Assembly (NCBI GenBank): GCA_016844365.1
Contig: JAENIT010000009.1
Location: forward strand, 1-10,626
DNA length: 10,626 nucleotides
Direction of reading: 5' to 3'
Origin: Dehalococcoidia bacterium
GTDB lineage: Bacteria > Chloroflexota > Dehalococcoidia > SHYD01 > SHYC01
Both the position numbers and the translations under genes were made by a program. Shown piece by piece: positions 2,433-10,626 of the stretch (the first letter of the stretch is position 1; each line of letters starts with the position of its first letter). The notes below the pieces were generated by a model. It saw nothing but the letters and a program-made list of their open reading frames with translations, was not told the origin of the DNA and searched no databases.

Positions 2433-3455
2433 ATGCTCCGATGGGGATTAGTCCGCCTCCTCCTTATAGCTCTCTCCTTCGCATCGGTCTCAATAGCCCT
2501 TGCCACAGTGCCGGATCGGGCTATACGCTATTGGTACCTTTATTACTCCCCGGTCATCATAACCGCAGTTAGCTTCGGGCTAAGGGGCGCTCTTGCCGGG
2601 TGCAGTATCGCCATACTTTGTATCATCATCTTTTTTGATCGAGTCAGTCCCCTGCTTCAGGATGTAAGGGAAGGAGTCCTTATGAAGGTTTCCCTGGTTA
2701 CCGGCGCCCCCGCAGCGGAAGTGGCGGCTCTGTTATCGCAGGTCGCGGGCACTCCCTTAGCAGACGCTATCCATAATCTCGCAGCTCCTTTCGATGTATC
2801 GGCTGATCTTCCCATCATAGTGGCAGGGATGATCGTCCTGACCCTCATCAGCACCGTCGTGGGCTGGCTGGTGGATGAAAACAAGCGGAAAGAGTGGCTT
2901 CTGGAGGAGAGGGCCGACAAGGACGGCATGACCGGTCTCTGGAACCACCGCCGGTTCCACGAACTGCTAGAGCAGGAGGTGGCCCGAAGCCAGCGTTATG
3001 GACGCACAGTGGGGCTCCTTTTTATGGACATCGACGATCTAAAGCAATACAACGACAAATACGGCCACCAGGCTGGAGACGGTTTGATCAAATATGTGGC
3101 CAGCGCCCTTTGTAAGACAGTGCGAGCAGTGGATGTCGTATCCCGCTACGGGGGAGACGAGTTTGCCGTGATTCTGCCGGAGACCGGGGCTCGCGAGGCA
3201 AAAACTGCGGCCGATAGAATAAGGAGCTACGTAGTAGAGAATCCATATCTCAATGATCACGATTCACCCATAGGGTTAACCCTGAGCATTGGAGTGGCAG
3301 TGTGCCCGGACCACGCTAAGGACAAAGACACCCTTATCAGGGTTGCCGACATCGCTCTGTACGAAGCAAAAAGCTCGGGGGGAAACAAGGTGTGCGCTTA
3401 CGAGATACCAGATGAAGGAGGCGCCCAACAGAGCTACGCTTCCAGCTCCGGTTAA
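2433..3455 (+). CDS. Membrane diguanylate cyclase (GGDEF domain)
   Basis: This 340-residue protein makes cyclic di-GMP from two GTP. The N-terminal part has hydrophobic segments at about 5-25, 36-69 and 125-147, with a polar insert at about 72-122, giving a small membrane sensor resembling but not clearly assignable to the DUF4118/MASE types. A short helix (148-161) leads to the GGDEF domain (about 162-325), which opens with DKDGMTGLWNHRRF and has the active-site GGDEF exactly at 240-244. The inhibitory I-site RxxD is present as RAVD (231-234), five residues upstream as in product-inhibited cyclases. It should therefore be catalytically active and feedback controlled. The ATG at 2433 follows the larC stop by 12 bp, with GAGG overlapping that stop, so it is probably translated from the lar transcript. 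No EAL or HD-GYP phosphodiesterase domain is in the window. Confidence 0.92.
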   Translation: MLRWGLVRLLLIALSFASVSIALATVPDRAIRYWYLYYSPVIITAVSFGLRGALAGCSIAILCIIIFFDRVSPLLQDVREGVLMKVSLVTGAPAAEVAALLSQVAGTPLADAIHNLAAPFDVSADLPIIVAGMIVLTLISTVVGWLVDENKRKEWLLEERADKDGMTGLWNHRRFHELLEQEVARSQRYGRTVGLLFMDIDDLKQYNDKYGHQAGDGLIKYVASALCKTVRAVDVVSRYGGDEFAVILPETGAREAKTAADRIRSYVVENPYLNDHDSPIGLTLSIGVAVCPDHAKDKDTLIRVADIALYEAKSSGGNKVCAYEIPDEGGAQQSYASSSG

Positions 3456-3508: not shown

Positions 3509-3916
3509 TCACAAAATCATCGGGGCCAGCCCGAAGAATTCGGCTAGCAACTGATGGGGCCAGGAGAGGCAAAAACGAATAAAGGTTGAGTCGAAGAAAA
3601 GGCCGAAGCTAAGTGTCCCATGGGTGCTGACAACGCCTAGCACACCAAACAGGACAGAGGCCGCAATATACATCAAAAAGCCCAGCAGTATCCTCTCCGT
3701 CATCCCATCCACATTGATAATCCCCCCGGAGAGAAGAACGAACCCAACCATGAAAATAGAAGTGAAGGCTAGAGCTATCTCCCGTGGGTCAAGGTTAAAA
3801 TAGGGGAGGCCGCCCCTGGCCAGGGTAACTCGCCCCAGAGGGCTGCCCATGAAAAGCACGACCAGTGCGAAAACTACCAGGAAAATCCCGCCTATAAAAA
3901 AATGCTTCCTCTCCAT
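3509..3916 (-). CDS. Small hypothetical membrane protein
   Basis: I do not recognise this protein. From the ATG at 3916 it has 135 residues, starting MERKHFFIGG. It has three clear hydrophobic helices, at about 5-24, 46-67 and 75-97, and an aromatic-rich, partly hydrophobic C-terminal stretch ending LAEFFGLAPMIL. There is no signal-peptide cleavage motif and no charged catalytic motif. The frame opens further upstream at a GTG (3943), but that codon has no ribosome site and would lie at the predicted transcription start. The ATG at 3916 has GGAAGGGTGG just upstream, so I prefer it. The gene is transcribed towards the diguanylate cyclase gene and stands alone on its strand. The helical pattern and start signals suggest a real gene. 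Confidence 0.6.
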   Translation of the reverse strand: MERKHFFIGGIFLVVFALVVLFMGSPLGRVTLARGGLPYFNLDPREIALAFTSIFMVGFVLLSGGIINVDGMTERILLGFLMYIAASVLFGVLGVVSTHGTLSFGLFFDSTFIRFCLSWPHQLLAEFFGLAPMIL

Positions 3917-3951
3917 CTTTAGCCACCCTTCCAGGGAAGTCACGCGCTAAA

Positions 3952-4379: not shown

Positions 4380-5183
4380 TTGGGCAAGTTTGTCGAACAG
4401 CTTAAGCGTGTTGGCCAGCGAAGGGCAGCCACTGTGGGATTTGCGCGAGCTGCGGCTCAGAATCAGAGTACCAACATGCTCGTGGCCGTGTACCTGGAGG
4501 AGCTGGACGCATCCCTTATAAAGAAGGCTTCTAGCCAGGGAGCCAACGCCATCATGGTAGCGCCACCGAATAAAATCGAGGAAAGTGTTGCCACCAAGTT
4601 CTCGGGATCCCTGAGCGATGTCCCGTGGGGCATAACCCTGACCCCAGGAGATCTTGGCGACTCCCACCCGCTGGGCGAGCCGGACTTCGTTGTCTTAAAG
4701 GACTTGGCCACTCCCGCTAACGTCCTGGGCTCAGATAAGCGCGATGTTCTCCTGGCGCTGGATACTGCGCTACCCGACGCTGCCATCCGGGCGGCAGACG
4801 CGTTGGCAGTGGGGGCGCTGGTGATCGAGTTAGCTCCTTCAGACGTATTGACCATTGAGCACCTGATTGCCTGTCAGCGGGTGGCTCTCCTCACCCAGAA
4901 GCCCGTTATCGCCTCAATCCCCAGCGCCTGGGGCGCCGATGTGCTACCCCACCTACGAGACGTAGGGATTAAATGCGTGCTCCTGAATCTAGCAGGGGCT
5001 GAAGTAGGCAAGGTGGCCGAGTTCTGCGAGGCGGCTCGTGCCTTAGGTCCCCCTCGATCTCCCTTCAAAGAGCTTGACGCGATGGTGCCCGCAAGCGCGT
5101 TCAGGCCCTCGTATCAGAAGAAGGAGGAGGAGGACGAAGAAGAAGAGGACAGTCTTCACGCGAATCACTTTCGACACCACTGA
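4380..5183 (+). CDS. Hypothetical alpha/beta protein with acidic and His-rich tail
   Basis: I do not recognise this 267-residue protein. It shows regular beta-alpha alternation, for example LVAVYLEEL (34-42), ANAIMVAPP (55-63), PDFVVLKDL (101-109), DVLLALDT (122-129), ALVIELAP (146-153), KPVIASIPS (174-182) and IKCVLLNLAG (197-206). This suggests a TIM-barrel-like or related alpha/beta fold. It has no signal peptide or membrane helix, so it is probably cytoplasmic. After a Pro-rich hinge the C-terminus has an almost purely acidic run (249-257) and a tail with His260, His263, His266 and His267, which could bind a divalent metal. The TTG start at 4380 is supported by AGAGGT at 4366-4371 with 8-nt spacing; no better start exists. 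The DUF5678-like gene follows after 54 bp and may be co-transcribed. Confidence 0.75.
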   Translation: MGKFVEQLKRVGQRRAATVGFARAAAQNQSTNMLVAVYLEELDASLIKKASSQGANAIMVAPPNKIEESVATKFSGSLSDVPWGITLTPGDLGDSHPLGEPDFVVLKDLATPANVLGSDKRDVLLALDTALPDAAIRAADALAVGALVIELAPSDVLTIEHLIACQRVALLTQKPVIASIPSAWGADVLPHLRDVGIKCVLLNLAGAEVGKVAEFCEAARALGPPRSPFKELDAMVPASAFRPSYQKKEEEDEEEEDSLHANHFRHH

Positions 5184-5237: not shown

Positions 5238-5504
5238 GTGAGTAAGGAAGGCCTAGACAGGGAGGCTGTAGCTGGCCTTCACCGTTTCGATCAGGATTCC
5301 ATACTTCTAGAACGTCAATACCCAGAATTGCTCAAACAGTATCCAAACCACTGGGTGGCGGTGTACAAGGGGAAAGTGTACATTGAACCTACCCATCAGG
5401 ATCTTGACAAGACCTTGAGGAAGCACAAGGTTCCACTAAATAGGGCCGCTGAGACTTTCCTTTCGACCATTGATAAGAATAGGATAGTTACGCGATTCGC
5501 TTAA
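5238..5504 (+). CDS. Small DUF5678-like protein
   Basis: This 88-residue protein contains the stretch YPELLKQYPNHWVAVYKGKV (29-48), which resembles the core of DUF5678, a short domain of unknown function whose members typically show a 'pelLkkYpgkWVAvvdgkV' pattern. The assignment is by pattern only. The part before it is polar and partly acidic, and the part after it is basic (DKTLRKHKVPLNRA) and probably helical. There is no membrane segment or signal peptide. The start is GTG at 5238 with an excellent GGGAGG (5226-5231) six bases upstream, which argues for efficient translation. It lies 54 bp after the alpha/beta protein gene and about 95 bp before alr. No partner such as a toxin or a retroviral-type aspartyl protease is recognisable next to it. 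Confidence 0.75.
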   Translation: MSKEGLDREAVAGLHRFDQDSILLERQYPELLKQYPNHWVAVYKGKVYIEPTHQDLDKTLRKHKVPLNRAAETFLSTIDKNRIVTRFA

Positions 5505-5599: not shown

Positions 5600-6775
5600 A
5601 TGTGGCGCGGCAGGCCCCTTTGGGCAGAGATAGACCTTGATGCTATTGCCCACAACATCAAAGAGATCCAGCGAAGAGTTGGGGGAAATCGGGAGATATT
5701 GGCCGTTGTTAAAGCCAACGGCTACGGCCATGGAGCCGTACAAGTGGCCAAGGAGGCTCTCAGGTCGGGGGCCCGACGTCTGGGTGTAGCCTGCGCCGAC
5801 GAGGGGGTGCAGTTGCGCCAGGCGGGGATAACCGCCCCCGTACTGGTCATGGGATATACGCCAGAGTGGGAGGCCGTCAAGCTCATCGCCAACGACCTCA
5901 CCCCTACGGTTACCACCAGGAAGCTGGCCCTAGCCCTGGCCGCGGCCTCATCGCAAAAGGGCAGGGTCACGCCCGTTCATATCAAGATAGACACCGGCAT
6001 GAACCGCCTTGGCGTCTCCCCTGGAGAGGCAGAGGAGCTAGTCTCCCTCATCCGCTCTTTGCCATCCCTGAGTGCAGAGGGCCTATACACCCACTTCGCC
6101 TCCGCCGATGAGCTAGATAAGGAGTTCACCTACCAGCAGTTCAAGGTGTTTCTACAAACAGCGGAACGGCTCCCGGCAATCCCCTACCGTCACGCCGCCA
6201 ACAGCGCTGCGATCCTGGACTTACCGGAGATGGGGCTAGAGATTGTGCGCCCTGGGGTTAGCGTATACGGGTGTTACCCCTCAAACTCCGTTGGTCGTTC
6301 CGTAGAGCTAAGGCCGGCTCTCACCCTGAAGAGCAGAGTAGCCAGGTTGCAGTGGCTGGCTCCAGGAGAGACCGTCAGTTACGGGCGGACATGGATGGCT
6401 AAGGAGAGATGTAGAATAGCGCTGGTAAGCTGCGGCTATGCCGATGGCCTGCCTCGCCTCCTATCCAACGTCGGCCACATGCTCGTCCGTGGGGTAAGGG
6501 TCCCTATAGTGGGCAGGATATGCATGGACCAGTGTATTGTGGACGTGACCCACGTGCCGGGGATTGAGCTGGATGATGAGGTAGTTATTATCGGGCGACA
6601 GGGCGAGGAGGAGATAACGGCGGGAGACGTAGCACAAGAGGCCCAGACCATAAGTTACGAGATCCTCTGCGGAATCTCAGCCCGAGTTCCACGGCTCTAC
6701 ATCAAAGGCGGGGAAGTGGTCGCCTGCCAGACTCTGGTGGATGAAGAGGAGTTCTCTCCATCTCCGATACCCTAG
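5600..6775 (+). CDS. alr: Alanine racemase
   Basis: This 391-residue PLP enzyme interconverts L- and D-alanine, supplying D-alanine for peptidoglycan. The PLP lysine is Lys38 in AVVKANGYGHG (35-45). The second catalytic base is Tyr261 in VSYGRTW (259-265). Arg217 in VRPGVSVYG contacts the PLP ring nitrogen in family structures, and Arg136 in GMNRLG and the MDQ block (309-311) are also conserved. Domain order is the usual N-terminal TIM barrel (to about 235) and C-terminal beta domain, and the length is normal. The ATG at 5600 has GAGGTGA (5589-5595) at good spacing. The short tail after the domain (380-391) is acidic then Pro/Ser-rich. The stop TAG lies in a CTAG shared with the stop of the convergent regulator gene. 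All active-site residues I could check are present, so it should be active. Confidence 0.97.
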   Translation: MWRGRPLWAEIDLDAIAHNIKEIQRRVGGNREILAVVKANGYGHGAVQVAKEALRSGARRLGVACADEGVQLRQAGITAPVLVMGYTPEWEAVKLIANDLTPTVTTRKLALALAAASSQKGRVTPVHIKIDTGMNRLGVSPGEAEELVSLIRSLPSLSAEGLYTHFASADELDKEFTYQQFKVFLQTAERLPAIPYRHAANSAAILDLPEMGLEIVRPGVSVYGCYPSNSVGRSVELRPALTLKSRVARLQWLAPGETVSYGRTWMAKERCRIALVSCGYADGLPRLLSNVGHMLVRGVRVPIVGRICMDQCIVDVTHVPGIELDDEVVIIGRQGEEEITAGDVAQEAQTISYEILCGISARVPRLYIKGGEVVACQTLVDEEEFSPSPIP

Positions 6776-8202
6776 TTGTCCGACAGCTTATAGCCAGCGC
6801 CCCTCACGGTGAGGATACGCTTGGGAGATGACGCGTCTTCCTCCAGCTTTCTGCGCAAACGGTGGATATATACGTCTACCACGTTTGTCTGTCCTTTGTA
6901 AACGTCCCCCCAGGTCTTACGAAAGAGATGCTCCTGGCTCACAGGGGTGCCCGCCGTTTCAGCCAGAGCTTTCAGAAGCCGGTACTCTGTTGGGGAAAGG
7001 TCTACAGGCCTGCCCAGCAGACTGACTTTCTGGGCGGTGGTATCTATCTGAAGCCCATTGACGCTCATAACCGTTCTTCGCCGGGGCTCTCGCATCCGCT
7101 CTAAGCGAGTCACTGTAGCCTCGAGCTCCGTCAGTAAACTGGCGATCCTCTCTTGGGACGCTTGATACAGCCTGGCGTTAGAAACGGCCATGGCTGTCAG
7201 ATCTCCGTAGCCTTTGGCCAATCTGAGTTCAGTCTCCGTAAAAACCCGGCCTCCATCATCGTCAAAGCAGTAAAGGACGCCTGCGGGTCTACCTCCTGAG
7301 ATCAAGGGTACCGCCATTACACTCCCATGACCAAAGCTACTCACATCGGTGAAGCTGCTATCCGGCCCCTCGGAACTATTTGACAGCACCACTGGATCCC
7401 CTGAAACCCAAGAACGCCGGGCCAGGGAGTTCCCCGTAGGAACCTCGACAATGTCCTCTATCCTCTCAACCCCCAACTCTTTCACGTCCACGTTGCTCGC
7501 TCTGCCAACAAGCTTGCCATTGCCCTCGTCGAGCAATAGGGCCACGCACTTGGAGAGGCCGGTGATCCTGGGGGACAACTGGGTGATGTCCTGGAGAAGG
7601 AGGTCTAGGTCCAAGGTGCTGTTCAGAGTCTTTGCCACATCAAGCAGGCTCCGCGCCCCGCTTTCCACGTTCAACAGGTCTTGGAGGGCCTCTTTCTCAG
7701 CCTGCTCCCTTATGCTCTTCTGCCCAAGATAGCCGCTGAAGGCTGCAACGATGTAGAACAGTATGGCTTGAACGGGGAGAATCCGCTCTATGTCAGGACC
7801 AAGGCCATTGAGCAGGGCAAAGGCCACAAGTCCTACTGCGGCTGTGGTAGCAGCAAAGAGGCTGCCTACATACCCCAGGTGAATAGAGTAGTAGATAATG
7901 AATACCGGGAACAGGATAACCAGTGCTGTGTTGAGGGTTCCGGTAACAAAGAGAGTGCTTATGAGGGCCGCGGTATCCACCAGGATCATACCGTAAATGA
8001 GATAGACGGAGGAGAATTTGGGCAGAATATAGTACCGAAGGACCAGGGAGTAGATTACGTAAAGAACGTAGGCTATGGACAACACAAGGGCCATCGGGAT
8101 AGAGAGCGTGTGTTGATGGAAATAAAGGCCTGCTGTAGCGCCCAAAGCTGCCACAAGCCTGAGTTTAAGGGTCTCTTTCTCCGTCCTTAGAAAGCGCTCC
8201 AC
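6772..8202 (-). CDS. Membrane-anchored GAF and winged-helix transcription regulator
   Basis: This 476-residue protein has an unusual order of parts. Residues 13-160 hold about six membrane helices. A helical linker (162-195, including NVESGARSLLDVAKTLN) leads to a GAF domain (about 190-345; GSVMAVPLISGGRPAGVLYCFDD at 293-315 is typical). A coiled-coil stretch (345-372) follows. The C-terminus (378-475) is an OmpR/PhoB-type winged helix, with LSPTEYRLLKALAE, recognition helix TNVVDVYIHRLRRKLE (439-454) and the wing VRGAGYKL (466-473). The input half looks like a sensor kinase, but there is no HisKA/HATPase and no receiver domain, so I infer a one-component regulator acting from the membrane. 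The start is GTG at 8202 with GGGAG upstream; an ATG at 8215 is out of frame. It follows the TPR paralogue by 34 bp, probably on the same transcript. Ligand and targets are unknown. Confidence 0.85.
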   Translation of the reverse strand: MERFLRTEKETLKLRLVAALGATAGLYFHQHTLSIPMALVLSIAYVLYVIYSLVLRYYILPKFSSVYLIYGMILVDTAALISTLFVTGTLNTALVILFPVFIIYYSIHLGYVGSLFAATTAAVGLVAFALLNGLGPDIERILPVQAILFYIVAAFSGYLGQKSIREQAEKEALQDLLNVESGARSLLDVAKTLNSTLDLDLLLQDITQLSPRITGLSKCVALLLDEGNGKLVGRASNVDVKELGVERIEDIVEVPTGNSLARRSWVSGDPVVLSNSSEGPDSSFTDVSSFGHGSVMAVPLISGGRPAGVLYCFDDDGGRVFTETELRLAKGYGDLTAMAVSNARLYQASQERIASLLTELEATVTRLERMREPRRRTVMSVNGLQIDTTAQKVSLLGRPVDLSPTEYRLLKALAETAGTPVSQEHLFRKTWGDVYKGQTNVVDVYIHRLRRKLEEDASSPKRILTVRGAGYKLSDN

Positions 8203-8236: not shown

Positions 8237-9292
8237 CTATCGTTGAGCAGCCTCGCCCCACATCCGACTAAAAAAGATGCGGAGAGCCTCCCTATCATCG
8301 CCGGAGCTAAGGGTCAGAGCTCTCTCTCCTGCGGAACGGCTCTCCTCCTCCCTACCCAGCTCTGAGTATATGACAGCCAGGTTCTGATAGGCCTCCCATT
8401 CCTGTTGGGAGGCTTCGGCAAACCTCTCGGCGGGATCAAGTGCCGCCTCAAAGCGGCCCTGCCTGACCAAAACCTCGCTCAACCCTCTTTGCGCCTCTAT
8501 CAGATTGGGGTCTAAGGTCGTCGCTCTCGTGTAAACCTCAACCGCTCGATTGAGCTGACCGGTCTCAGCATACACCCGGCCGAAGGCGTAGTGGGCCAAG
8601 GCGTACTGGGAGTCAATGCTCAGAGAGAATTGGAGCTTCTCTATCGCCTCTTTTTCCGGTGTCTGGTTGAGGTAGCCGGCAGACCAATCCTCGTACAGAT
8701 CAATGGCCCTGTTGATAACATTCACTATCTCTCTCAGTCCCCTGGTCCCGCTCTCTATGCGGATCAGCTCCTGAAGGGTCTCCCGCTTCTCCTTCTCCTG
8801 CGTTGCCCTCTTAGCAAGGAACCCGCTGAAGTAGGCCAGCAGGAAAAAGAGGGGGACTTGAAAGGCCACCATCGTCCCTCTGGAGACGCCTATAGGCTCT
8901 GTAAAAACAGCGTATCCCACCAGGGCAAAGGAGAGGACTATGGCAGCAAAGAAACTGCTAAAGTAGTCTAAATAGATGGCGTAGAAGATGATAAAAACAG
9001 GGAAAAGGACGAAGAGGTTACTCTCCAGCCCTCCCGCCATATCCATGAACAGCACCAACACAGCGGCATCGATAACGATCATCCCGTAGACTAGATACCT
9101 GGTCCTGATTACAGGGATGATAAAACGTTTTAAGGAAAGGGCGTAGACCAGGTAGACCAGGATGAGACCCGCAAACAGGAGGAGAGTGTCCCCCAGATCC
9201 TGTCTCCTGGTGTAGAGGCCGAAGGCGATGGCAGCTATAGCCAGAAGCCTAAGTTTTAAGGTCTCGCGCTCTGCCTCTAGGATAACGGCCAT
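8237..9292 (-). CDS. Six-helix membrane protein with TPR repeats, paralogue of the regulator
   Basis: From the ATG at 9292 the protein has 351 residues. The first 160 or so form about six membrane helices homologous to those of the next gene, with shared blocks ETLKLRL, YGMI, LFPVFII and YFSGFL/AFSGYL and the same linker pattern (IESGTRGLREIVNVIN). After about residue 195 it diverges: instead of GAF there are roughly three TPR-like repeats (about 212-325), such as ALAHYAFGRVYAETGQLNRA and EAYQNLAVIYSELGREEESR, which usually mediate protein contacts. The frame also opens at an ATG at 9337, but that codon has no ribosome site and sits at the predicted transcription start. The ATG at 9292 has GGAGG upstream and puts the ESG linker motif at residues 180-182 in both paralogues. 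Probably a partner or anchor in the same signalling system; no enzymatic motif is seen. Confidence 0.8.
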   Translation of the reverse strand: MAVILEAERETLKLRLLAIAAIAFGLYTRRQDLGDTLLLFAGLILVYLVYALSLKRFIIPVIRTRYLVYGMIVIDAAVLVLFMDMAGGLESNLFVLFPVFIIFYAIYLDYFSSFFAAIVLSFALVGYAVFTEPIGVSRGTMVAFQVPLFFLLAYFSGFLAKRATQEKEKRETLQELIRIESGTRGLREIVNVINRAIDLYEDWSAGYLNQTPEKEAIEKLQFSLSIDSQYALAHYAFGRVYAETGQLNRAVEVYTRATTLDPNLIEAQRGLSEVLVRQGRFEAALDPAERFAEASQQEWEAYQNLAVIYSELGREEESRSAGERALTLSSGDDREALRIFFSRMWGEAAQR

Positions 9293-9343: not shown

Positions 9344-9372
9344 ATTATAACAGATTGTAATCTCTTAGTCAG
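9344..9372 (-). promoter_or_regulatory. Sigma70-like promoter of the TPR/regulator pair
   Basis: On the - strand, a perfect -10 TATAAT (9349-9344) is preceded by a 17-bp spacer and CTGACT (9372-9367), a four-of-six -35 match that overlaps the stop of the upstream gene. Transcription would start near 9337, leaving a leader of about 45 nt before the ATG at 9292. It suggests that the two paralogous membrane genes can be transcribed independently of the DUF2723-like gene. Confidence 0.5.
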
Positions 9373-10626
9373 CATTCGGGCTCTGTGGAGAGGTTACGTT
9401 TATTTCTACCAATGGTATACGGCTGTATGGCCCTGAATCGCCATTGAACACGGATACCACTCTGTTCCTGTCATTCTCTACGAGAGAGAGGAAAATGGTG
9501 TACGCTCCTGCCCTAGCGGACTCCGGCACATACAGGTTGTAAGACTCCTCCACCAGGTGGTTTGGAGGCCAATGGGAAGATGGGAACTCACCGTACCCTT
9601 GAGGCACCCTGTAGCTGAAGCTATGCTTGTTGGAAAGGATGCTCGCCGCCTCCGCCAAGGAGGTGCCTTGAAAGTAGAAATCAAGATCATAGTTACCCTG
9701 GACCGTATCCTCTACTATCCAGGAGATGTGAACCAGGACCAGTTCACCGGGACGGACTGTCGATGGCTCTATTTTGGCGCTCCGCAGTCGCAGGCTGCCT
9801 CCAAAGATGGGACCCTGCCTCAATGCGCTATCGTCCAACGCCTCCGCCCTGGGCGAATCTTTCCTACTGAGCTTATAGAGATCTCCTACGGCCTCAAAGG
9901 ACCATGCTGTCGCCACGAAATGATCGTAGAGAACGCTGTACAGGGGCCGGTCACCGTATCGCTCCAGCTCACGGTTCAGCGCTGGCACCCACTGCTCTCC
10001 CGCCGTCATGCCTGAGAAAATCCATCGACCCGCCAGAAACAGCCTGGGATCCATAACTGAAACATCGGGTCTGAGGCCCTCCACTATCTGCGCGTACCAC
10101 ACAGGCCACCCCGGATACTGGGCTAGAATGACGGCGTCGGAGGGCAAAGCAGCCAAAGTGTCTCTTGCAAAAGATTCGGGACCTCGGGCCTCACTGTAAT
10201 TCAGATATCTGAAGTTATAGATGAGCGCGATTAGTGGTAGACAGGCTAAGGCAAGAATAGGGAGCGCCATCTTAAAATGACCCGGAACAACCAGGGCTCG
10301 AGAACTATGGGTCAGCGCTCGAGAGAGCCATTCCCGCACGGCCTCAGCGCCGACAGCAAACCACACCGTTGAAAGCAGAGTGAGAAAGACCGCGAAGTCC
10401 TCTATATCTGCAACACGATAAAGGGATACAAACAGCAGGTTCGGCACGAAAAACAATAGGATTAGGATAAGGGTTTGGGGATCTCTCTTATATTGAAGTA
10501 TGGCCCCCAGATAAACCAGCAGCGCGCCCCCTATTACATAATCCATAGCCATAGCGCCCAAGGCCACGCCCGCCTGATTGTAAGCTGTACCTAAACTCGA
10601 AGCGGTCAGAGCCGAACGGTAAAAGT
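9365..10626 (-). CDS. DUF2723-like polytopic membrane protein (5' end missing)
   Basis: The frame is open through the right edge; 419 residues of the C-terminal part are visible, and an internal GTG at 10567 is not taken as a start. Four membrane helices lie at about visible residues 20-43, 51-69, 75-95 and 119-137. After them comes PSDAVILAQYPGWPVWYAQIVEGLRPDVSVMDPRLF, which matches the pattern in DUF2723 (GT-C-like, GT117) proteins of a soluble segment after the last helices with 'WYaqevegiRPDV'. The final 150 or so residues look like a beta-sandwich (SAKIEPSTVRPGELVLVHISW onward), probably outside the cytoplasm. Family members are thought to be membrane glycosyltransferases; the catalytic N-terminal loops are outside the window. 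The stop is 72 bp before the start of the TPR gene. The family call is by pattern and moderately sure. Confidence 0.7.
   Translation of the reverse strand, partial: FYRSALTASSLGTAYNQAGVALGAMAMDYVIGGALLVYLGAILQYKRDPQTLILILLFFVPNLLFVSLYRVADIEDFAVFLTLLSTVWFAVGAEAVREWLSRALTHSSRALVVPGHFKMALPILALACLPLIALIYNFRYLNYSEARGPESFARDTLAALPSDAVILAQYPGWPVWYAQIVEGLRPDVSVMDPRLFLAGRWIFSGMTAGEQWVPALNRELERYGDRPLYSVLYDHFVATAWSFEAVGDLYKLSRKDSPRAEALDDSALRQGPIFGGSLRLRSAKIEPSTVRPGELVLVHISWIVEDTVQGNYDLDFYFQGTSLAEAASILSNKHSFSYRVPQGYGEFPSSHWPPNHLVEESYNLYVPESARAGAYTIFLSLVENDRNRVVSVFNGDSGPYSRIPLVEINVTSPQSPNAD

Follow-up and report, generated by a model that had tools for sequence, protein, structure and literature searches.

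The window, that is, the whole stretch of DNA analysed (10,626 nt), contains a regulator gene convergent with alr (Table 1). Its reading frame is open over the full 476 aa, and GGGAG stands ahead of the GTG start. A first-pass annotation of this DNA had described the product as laid out like a sensor kinase at its front (membrane helices, signalling linker, GAF, coiled coil), with a full OmpR/PhoB winged helix where the kinase would be expected and no phosphorylation-site domain. Pfam bears out this description: GAF is found at approximately residues 198-342 (E 3e-14), Trans_reg_C (PF00486) at 397-473 (E 1e-26), and no kinase or receiver family is present among the six families reported at E<=1. 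The winged helix of OmpR/PhoB response regulators is thus present by Pfam, while their N-terminal receiver is not. The gap between GAF and winged helix is about 35 residues, mostly helix, with no kinase or receiver found in it.

In the AlphaFold2 model (22-row alignment, mean pLDDT 82, pTM 0.46), helices span residues 2-28, 35-62, 66-87, 93-109, 111-132 and 136-194, followed by the GAF domain, a further helix at 323-371 and the winged helix at 378-473. The annotated six-helix membrane sensor is seen in the model, but simple hydropathy marks only five windows above 1.5, helix 1 being weakly hydrophobic. In Foldseek comparisons the winged helix resembles solved OmpR-family DNA-binding domains including YycF (best E 8e-8, TMt 0.92), and the GAF fold resembles solved GAF domains such as 5w10, with a cAMP-bound one among the matches. 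From sequence and model, the protein is predicted to combine a transmembrane region and a DNA-binding domain in one chain, as a one-component transmembrane transcription regulator.

Table 1. Features of the regulator locus, in window coordinates
Feature	Position	Strand	Remarks
Alanine racemase, alr	5600..6775	plus	TIGR00492; convergent, overlaps regulator by 4 bases
One-component regulator, 6TM(PilS-type)-GAF-OmpR winged helix	6772..8202	minus	476 aa, GTG start
OmpR/PhoB winged helix, residues 378-476	6775..7071	minus	PF00486 E 1e-26; solved relatives
Linking helix, putative coiled coil, residues 343-377	7072..7176	minus	Pfam and AlphaFold2 model
GAF domain, residues 198-342	7177..7611	minus	PF13492/PF13185/PF01590
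Signalling helix, continuous from TM6 towards GAF, residues 161-197	7612..7722	minus	Helix 136-194 in AlphaFold2 model
Six-helix membrane sensor module, PilS-type, residues 1-160	7723..8202	minus	Profile-profile match; invariant R15, D76
Sister protein, same 6TM module plus TPR repeats	8237..9292	minus	351 aa; ATG at 9292; longest ORF from 9337
C-terminal part of TMEM260-like membrane glycosyltransferase homologue	9365..10624	minus	Upstream gene cut by window end; similarity to L022

The next gene upstream encodes a sister of the regulator, 38% identical to it over 200 aa, with TPR repeats at its C-terminal end (Pfam). The sister, modelled with a mean pLDDT of 73, shows six helices at its N-terminus and a stack of TPRs; the region between these is of low confidence. 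The sister family comprises ten proteins including itself (P0050-P0059), and a precomputed PF25323 assignment is found on three of the ten. The longest contig is 20,900 bases both for P0052 of this family and for P0002 of the regulator family, suggesting a conserved pair. The product of the truncated gene beyond the sister is 31% identical to residues 327-684 of L022:4411-6477, of which residues 59-209 are PF11028 (E 1e-32), and has no Pfam family of its own. The three genes lie on one strand, with gaps of 72 bases between glycosyltransferase and sister and 34 bases between sister and regulator, and probably form an operon.

On the alr side, the order hypothetical gene, alr, convergent regulator is shared with L021 of genome G055, which places the window near the G055 group. 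Window ORF 4380-5183 recurs beside alr in L021 (33% identity); like ORFs 3509-3943 and 5238-5504, it has no Pfam family above the curated cut-off. Additionally, larE and larC, for nickel pincer cofactor synthesis, are adjacent genes at 258-2420, directly followed by a diguanylate cyclase (GGDEF) at 2433-3455, whose N-terminal part is hydrophobic by reading and which has no similarity to the regulator by BLASTP. A lar neighbourhood recurs elsewhere: in L018, L019 and L020 the gene convergent with the regulator encodes LarB; the L019 regulator comes after rpoB-rpoC.

Domain order and membrane module in the family

A search of 5.8 billion proteins, in which 7996 candidates were scored, gave 49 matches. 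The best 22 of the 49, window protein included, are full-length relatives, and the remaining matches are partial. The 21 other clusters are 38-64% identical to the window regulator and share its order of GAF and winged helix; both domains are detected in all 22 aligned proteins. The HisKA and HATPase core of the PilS sensor kinase is absent by Pfam from the 22 members, the window protein included. The membrane part is shortened, with GAF kept, in three of the 22 (P0017, P0019 and P0021), which form one subclade.

Among genomes, a regulator-type gene is found in 11 of 393 from one class, that of a Chloroflexota groundwater genome, and in two of 400 from a phylum sample, both of which are also within the class sample; these scans scored up to four candidates per genome, and the membrane-module scan up to eight, so misses are possible. 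The order of G055 has the gene in one of five genomes, namely G055, and a scan of genome contigs gave three loci, one of them full-length. The protein and genome sets overlap (P0013 is the G001 copy and P0021 the G055 copy). A profile search at E<=1e-30 returned at least 23 proteins, 21 of them already known; it was incomplete, as the known member P0022 was not returned. Its new proteins are P0071 and P0072, the latter a kinase by its listed domains. In a plasmid collection, none of 1791 matching records had a single place covering 80% of the regulator query, and among the matches listed (20) the similarity is to the C-terminal part, query 292 onwards.

If the protein were an artefact, it would be either two genes joined by a frameshift or assembly error, or a decayed kinase. 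A join is ruled out because 21 full-length clusters and the loci in 11 of 393 genomes keep the same domain order, and a decayed kinase because no kinase or receiver is found by Pfam. Nothing was found in favour of either, the probability of an artefact is negligible, and the single gene of the first-pass annotation stands.

By hhalign, the membrane part aligns with PF25323-type domains over 172 columns at Prob 98.4 and E 5e-15; reversed-profile controls reach Prob 2.0 and 0.9. The PilS-type side comprised 21 of 28 PF25323 loci from Chloroflexota genomes, matches shorter than 150 residues having been dropped. The family side comprised 29 of 34 rows (28 regulators and the sister); left out were one duplicate row, the three shortened-membrane proteins and the copy of one of these from its genome. 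PF25323 (6TM_PilS) is matched at E<=5 by ten of 22 members (best 8e-5), and the window regulator alone has no match to it at E<=5 (Pfam). On the strength of the family profiles, the membrane part is assigned to the PF25323 superfamily as a PilS-type 6TM domain. This identity refines the annotated six-helix sensor; it had been missed by the first-pass annotation, and so had the 6TM-TPR sister, the link of relatives to pilus genes and the Rsp precedent (see below).

R15, at the start of helix 1, is kept in 29/29 family rows and aligned with R in 19/21 PilS-type rows, and D76, in helix 3, is kept in 29/29 family rows with a matching D in 16/21, the 21 rows including near-identical groups. Contact between PilS and pilin was reportedly described by Kilmury and Burrows in 2016. 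PilS has six TM segments, which contact PilA (PMC6058289), and its arginine 24 matters for pilin contact (PMC6528607). R15 of the regulator would correspond to PilS R24. The conserved arginine also occurs in PilS-type domains that have other outputs, and is therefore not diagnostic of pilin sensing.

Such domains in Chloroflexota also precede kinases and, by reading, HD-GYP and GGDEF parts. The Chloroflexota kinase L035 comprises 6TM_PilS, a weak GAF match below the cut-off, HisKA_3 and HATPase; a 6TM_PilS-HisKA_3 kinase of this type is a plausible kind of ancestor, in which the kinase would have been swapped for a winged helix. In P0061, whose match to PF25323 (E 5e-4) does not reach the curated cut-off, the same membrane module leads into sequence that by reading resembles a kinase dimerisation helix, although Pfam reported none. 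By reading, a related six-helix sensor precedes HD-GYP/GAF/GGDEF-like sequence in L029 and GGDEF in L081, and the sensor appears to have been reused within the phylum. With the membrane module alone as query, it was found in 18 of 393 genomes. It is joined to a winged helix without GAF in G342 (L075, by Pfam) and in G276 (L076, by reading).

These GAF-less proteins bear on what the regulator senses, for which the first-pass annotation had proposed a GAF ligand or a membrane signal. Were a cytoplasmic ligand of GAF the main signal, the six helices would serve only as an anchor. GAF is present in 22/22 close members, it is similar in fold to ligand-binding GAFs, 5w10 among them, and the shortened-membrane clade (P0017, P0019, P0021) keeps it. 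However, conservation within the regulator is lowest in GAF, if only slightly: its mean top-residue frequency is 0.51, compared with 0.55 in the membrane part and 0.67 in the winged helix. Only two GAF residues are invariant in the 22 rows, against six in the membrane part (R15, L16, Y48, D76, Y105 and S114). As GAF-less relatives exist and GAF is the least conserved part, the core input is more likely to enter through the membrane module. Of the two annotated inputs the membrane signal is therefore favoured, and GAF ligand binding as the main one is weakened and unlikely.

Type IV pilus genes near relatives

A prepilin gene lies 59-2758 bases from the regulator in six of the 11 genomes, where 0.13 would be expected within 4 kb (P 4e-10, ignoring kinship and with the 4 kb threshold chosen after the positions had been seen). 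Prepilin genes were called as N_methyl at E<=0.01, and the expectation was taken from genome coverage at 4 kb, genome completeness not being stated. Regulator and prepilin genes are on the same strand in 6/6 linked genomes, and chosen neighbours match T2SSE, T2SSF, PilM_2 and N_methyl, with PilN just below the cut-off (Pfam). The GAF-less 6TM-winged-helix gene of G342 is followed 3 bases on by a prepilin peptidase gene (A24_N_bact, E 1.5e-29), and that of G276 by a prepilin-peptidase-like but split ORF, by reading only.

The other five of the 11 relatives are without visible pilus linkage, two of their contigs being only about 5 kb. G041 and G055 have no prepilin match at all, the G055 contig also being one of the two of about 5 kb. 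In the tree, all pilus-linked members fall outside the window clade, with several branches long or weakly supported. No pilin gene is seen for the window clade, with its alr context; the glycosyltransferase-like neighbour in the window (31% identity) is common to the pilus-linked L022.

Just upstream of the regulator, L001:5757-7871 and L018:246-2513 encode an O-antigen ligase (Wzy_C) with C-terminal TPRs; that of L001 follows prepilin genes and is possibly a pilin glycosylation ligase. Divergent family members (L077-L080) each have a divergently transcribed neighbour, a DEAD-box helicase by Pfam in L078 and L079 and alike by reading in L077 and L080.

Sigma54 activators gave no match at E<=1e-10 in 13/13 genomes tested, and 5/14 control genomes were positive. 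A PilR-type partner is therefore unlikely in the 13. This absence holds only at the stricter limit, because one AAA protein, encoded near the regulator of G038, exceeds the PF00158 cut-off (23.1 bits, E 6e-5), with AAA_5 scoring better.

The neighbourhoods can also be read in terms of the envelope. DesK belongs to the HisKA_3 class of kinases. A sensor of membrane or envelope stress (bilayer, temperature, cell-wall or glycan status), using its 6TM domain in a similar way to DesK-type sensors, would control envelope genes such as the co-directional glycosyltransferase, with pilus linkage as one use only. Neighbouring genes speak for it: the window and L021 have alr, the window and L022 the putative glycosyltransferase, L001 and L018 O-antigen ligases, L023 a group 1 glycosyltransferase, and L078 and L079 the DEAD-box helicases; the similarly laid out kinase L035 is moreover of the HisKA_3 class. 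Nothing direct was found for such a signal, however, and the pilus linkage is far above expectation; this reading is possible but doubtful for the family. Preferred, and judged somewhat probable, is a membrane-embedded one-component PilS-like regulator that reads pilin or pilus state in the pilus-linked relatives.

Proposed signal path and known systems

Sequence evidence shows the architecture and its conservation, the PilS-type homology, the sister gene and the pilus linkage of relatives. The signal, dimerisation, targets and direction of control in the family are what we infer. Signalling would run from the PilS-type six-helix sensor through the signalling helix to GAF, and through the second helix to the OmpR-type winged helix. 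The helices of a regulator dimer would be altered by an event at or close to the membrane (or in GAF). Helices 136-194 and 323-371 would pass the change to the winged helices, which in the model lie only about six residues beyond, and DNA binding by the tethered winged helices would shift without phosphorylation.

For the pilus-linked relatives, the most economical signal is pilin or pilus state; what is sensed would probably be type IV pilin pooled in the membrane, or the state of pilus assembly, and these regulators would be one-component counterparts of PilS-PilR. The shortened membrane part of P0017, P0019 and P0021 makes a change of signal within the family probable. For the window clade pilin is an improbable signal, with an envelope state as the main alternative. 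The signal there may have shifted to such a state, read jointly with the sister 6TM-TPR protein, which carries no DNA-binding domain and could be a partner or competitor of the regulator. A more far-reaching version, held only tentatively and more doubtful than not, is that a conserved Chloroflexota lineage replaced the PilS-PilR phosphorelay and sigma54 by one membrane protein that reads bilayer pilin and itself binds pilus promoters, the output in the window clade being set by hetero-pairing with the TPR sister that shares its sensor.

One protein may do a job that usually needs two, a sensor and a gene switch. As the family joins a PilS-type sensor to a DNA-binding domain without a kinase, it offers a test of whether the pilin signal is carried by the six-helix domain on its own. 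This bears on type IV pilus control in bacteria where no sigma54 activator was found. The sensor in common with the TPR sister additionally offers a way to test pairing between membrane sensor modules.

No description of a 6TM-GAF-winged helix architecture was found among the titles and abstract openings listed in searches of open literature. With the transmembrane transcription regulators ToxR, CadC, TcpP and TfoS the family shares a membrane-tethered DNA-binding domain in one chain. ToxR and CadC have an N-terminal winged helix, one TM helix and a periplasmic sensor. The window regulator does not have this layout; its winged helix is C-terminal, after six helices, and the reversed order that had been annotated is confirmed. 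Such regulators number 50,302 in one survey, approximately 56% of them single-pass; some of those it lists control pilins, WmpR, PypB and ArnR being named in connection with pilin expression, and GAF is nowhere mentioned in its main text (PMC10269533).

The Chloroflexota 6TM_PilS kinases (L035) have the membrane module, helix and weak GAF match in the same order, but end in HisKA_3 and HATPase where the regulator ends in a winged helix. PilS-PilR is similar in its six-helix PilS-type sensor and in the type IV pilus gene linkage seen for relatives of the regulator. The regulator differs in having no kinase, receiver or sigma54 domain, and its DNA-binding domain is of another family; PilR uses an HTH class other than Trans_reg_C.

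The closest precedent in layout is Rsp of Neisseria gonorrhoeae, described as a PilS-PilR fusion (PMC10269533), with an N-terminal PilS-type membrane receptor and a C-terminal DNA-binding domain in one chain (PMC10269533; PMC6528607). Rsp represses pilA according to one source (PMC10269533), whereas another states that it apparently has no action on pilE transcription (PMC6528607), and the introduction of the survey cites it on the possible evolution of transmembrane regulators from two-component systems (PMC10269533). Set against the present family by description, Rsp unites the neighbouring genes npa and nps of one genus in a fusion, whereas the regulators here carry GAF and an OmpR winged helix (Trans_reg_C by Pfam, not PilR-derived as in Rsp) and form a conserved Chloroflexota clade. 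The family is thus a conserved and differently built case among known membrane-tethered regulators, distinct from the single-genus Rsp fusion.
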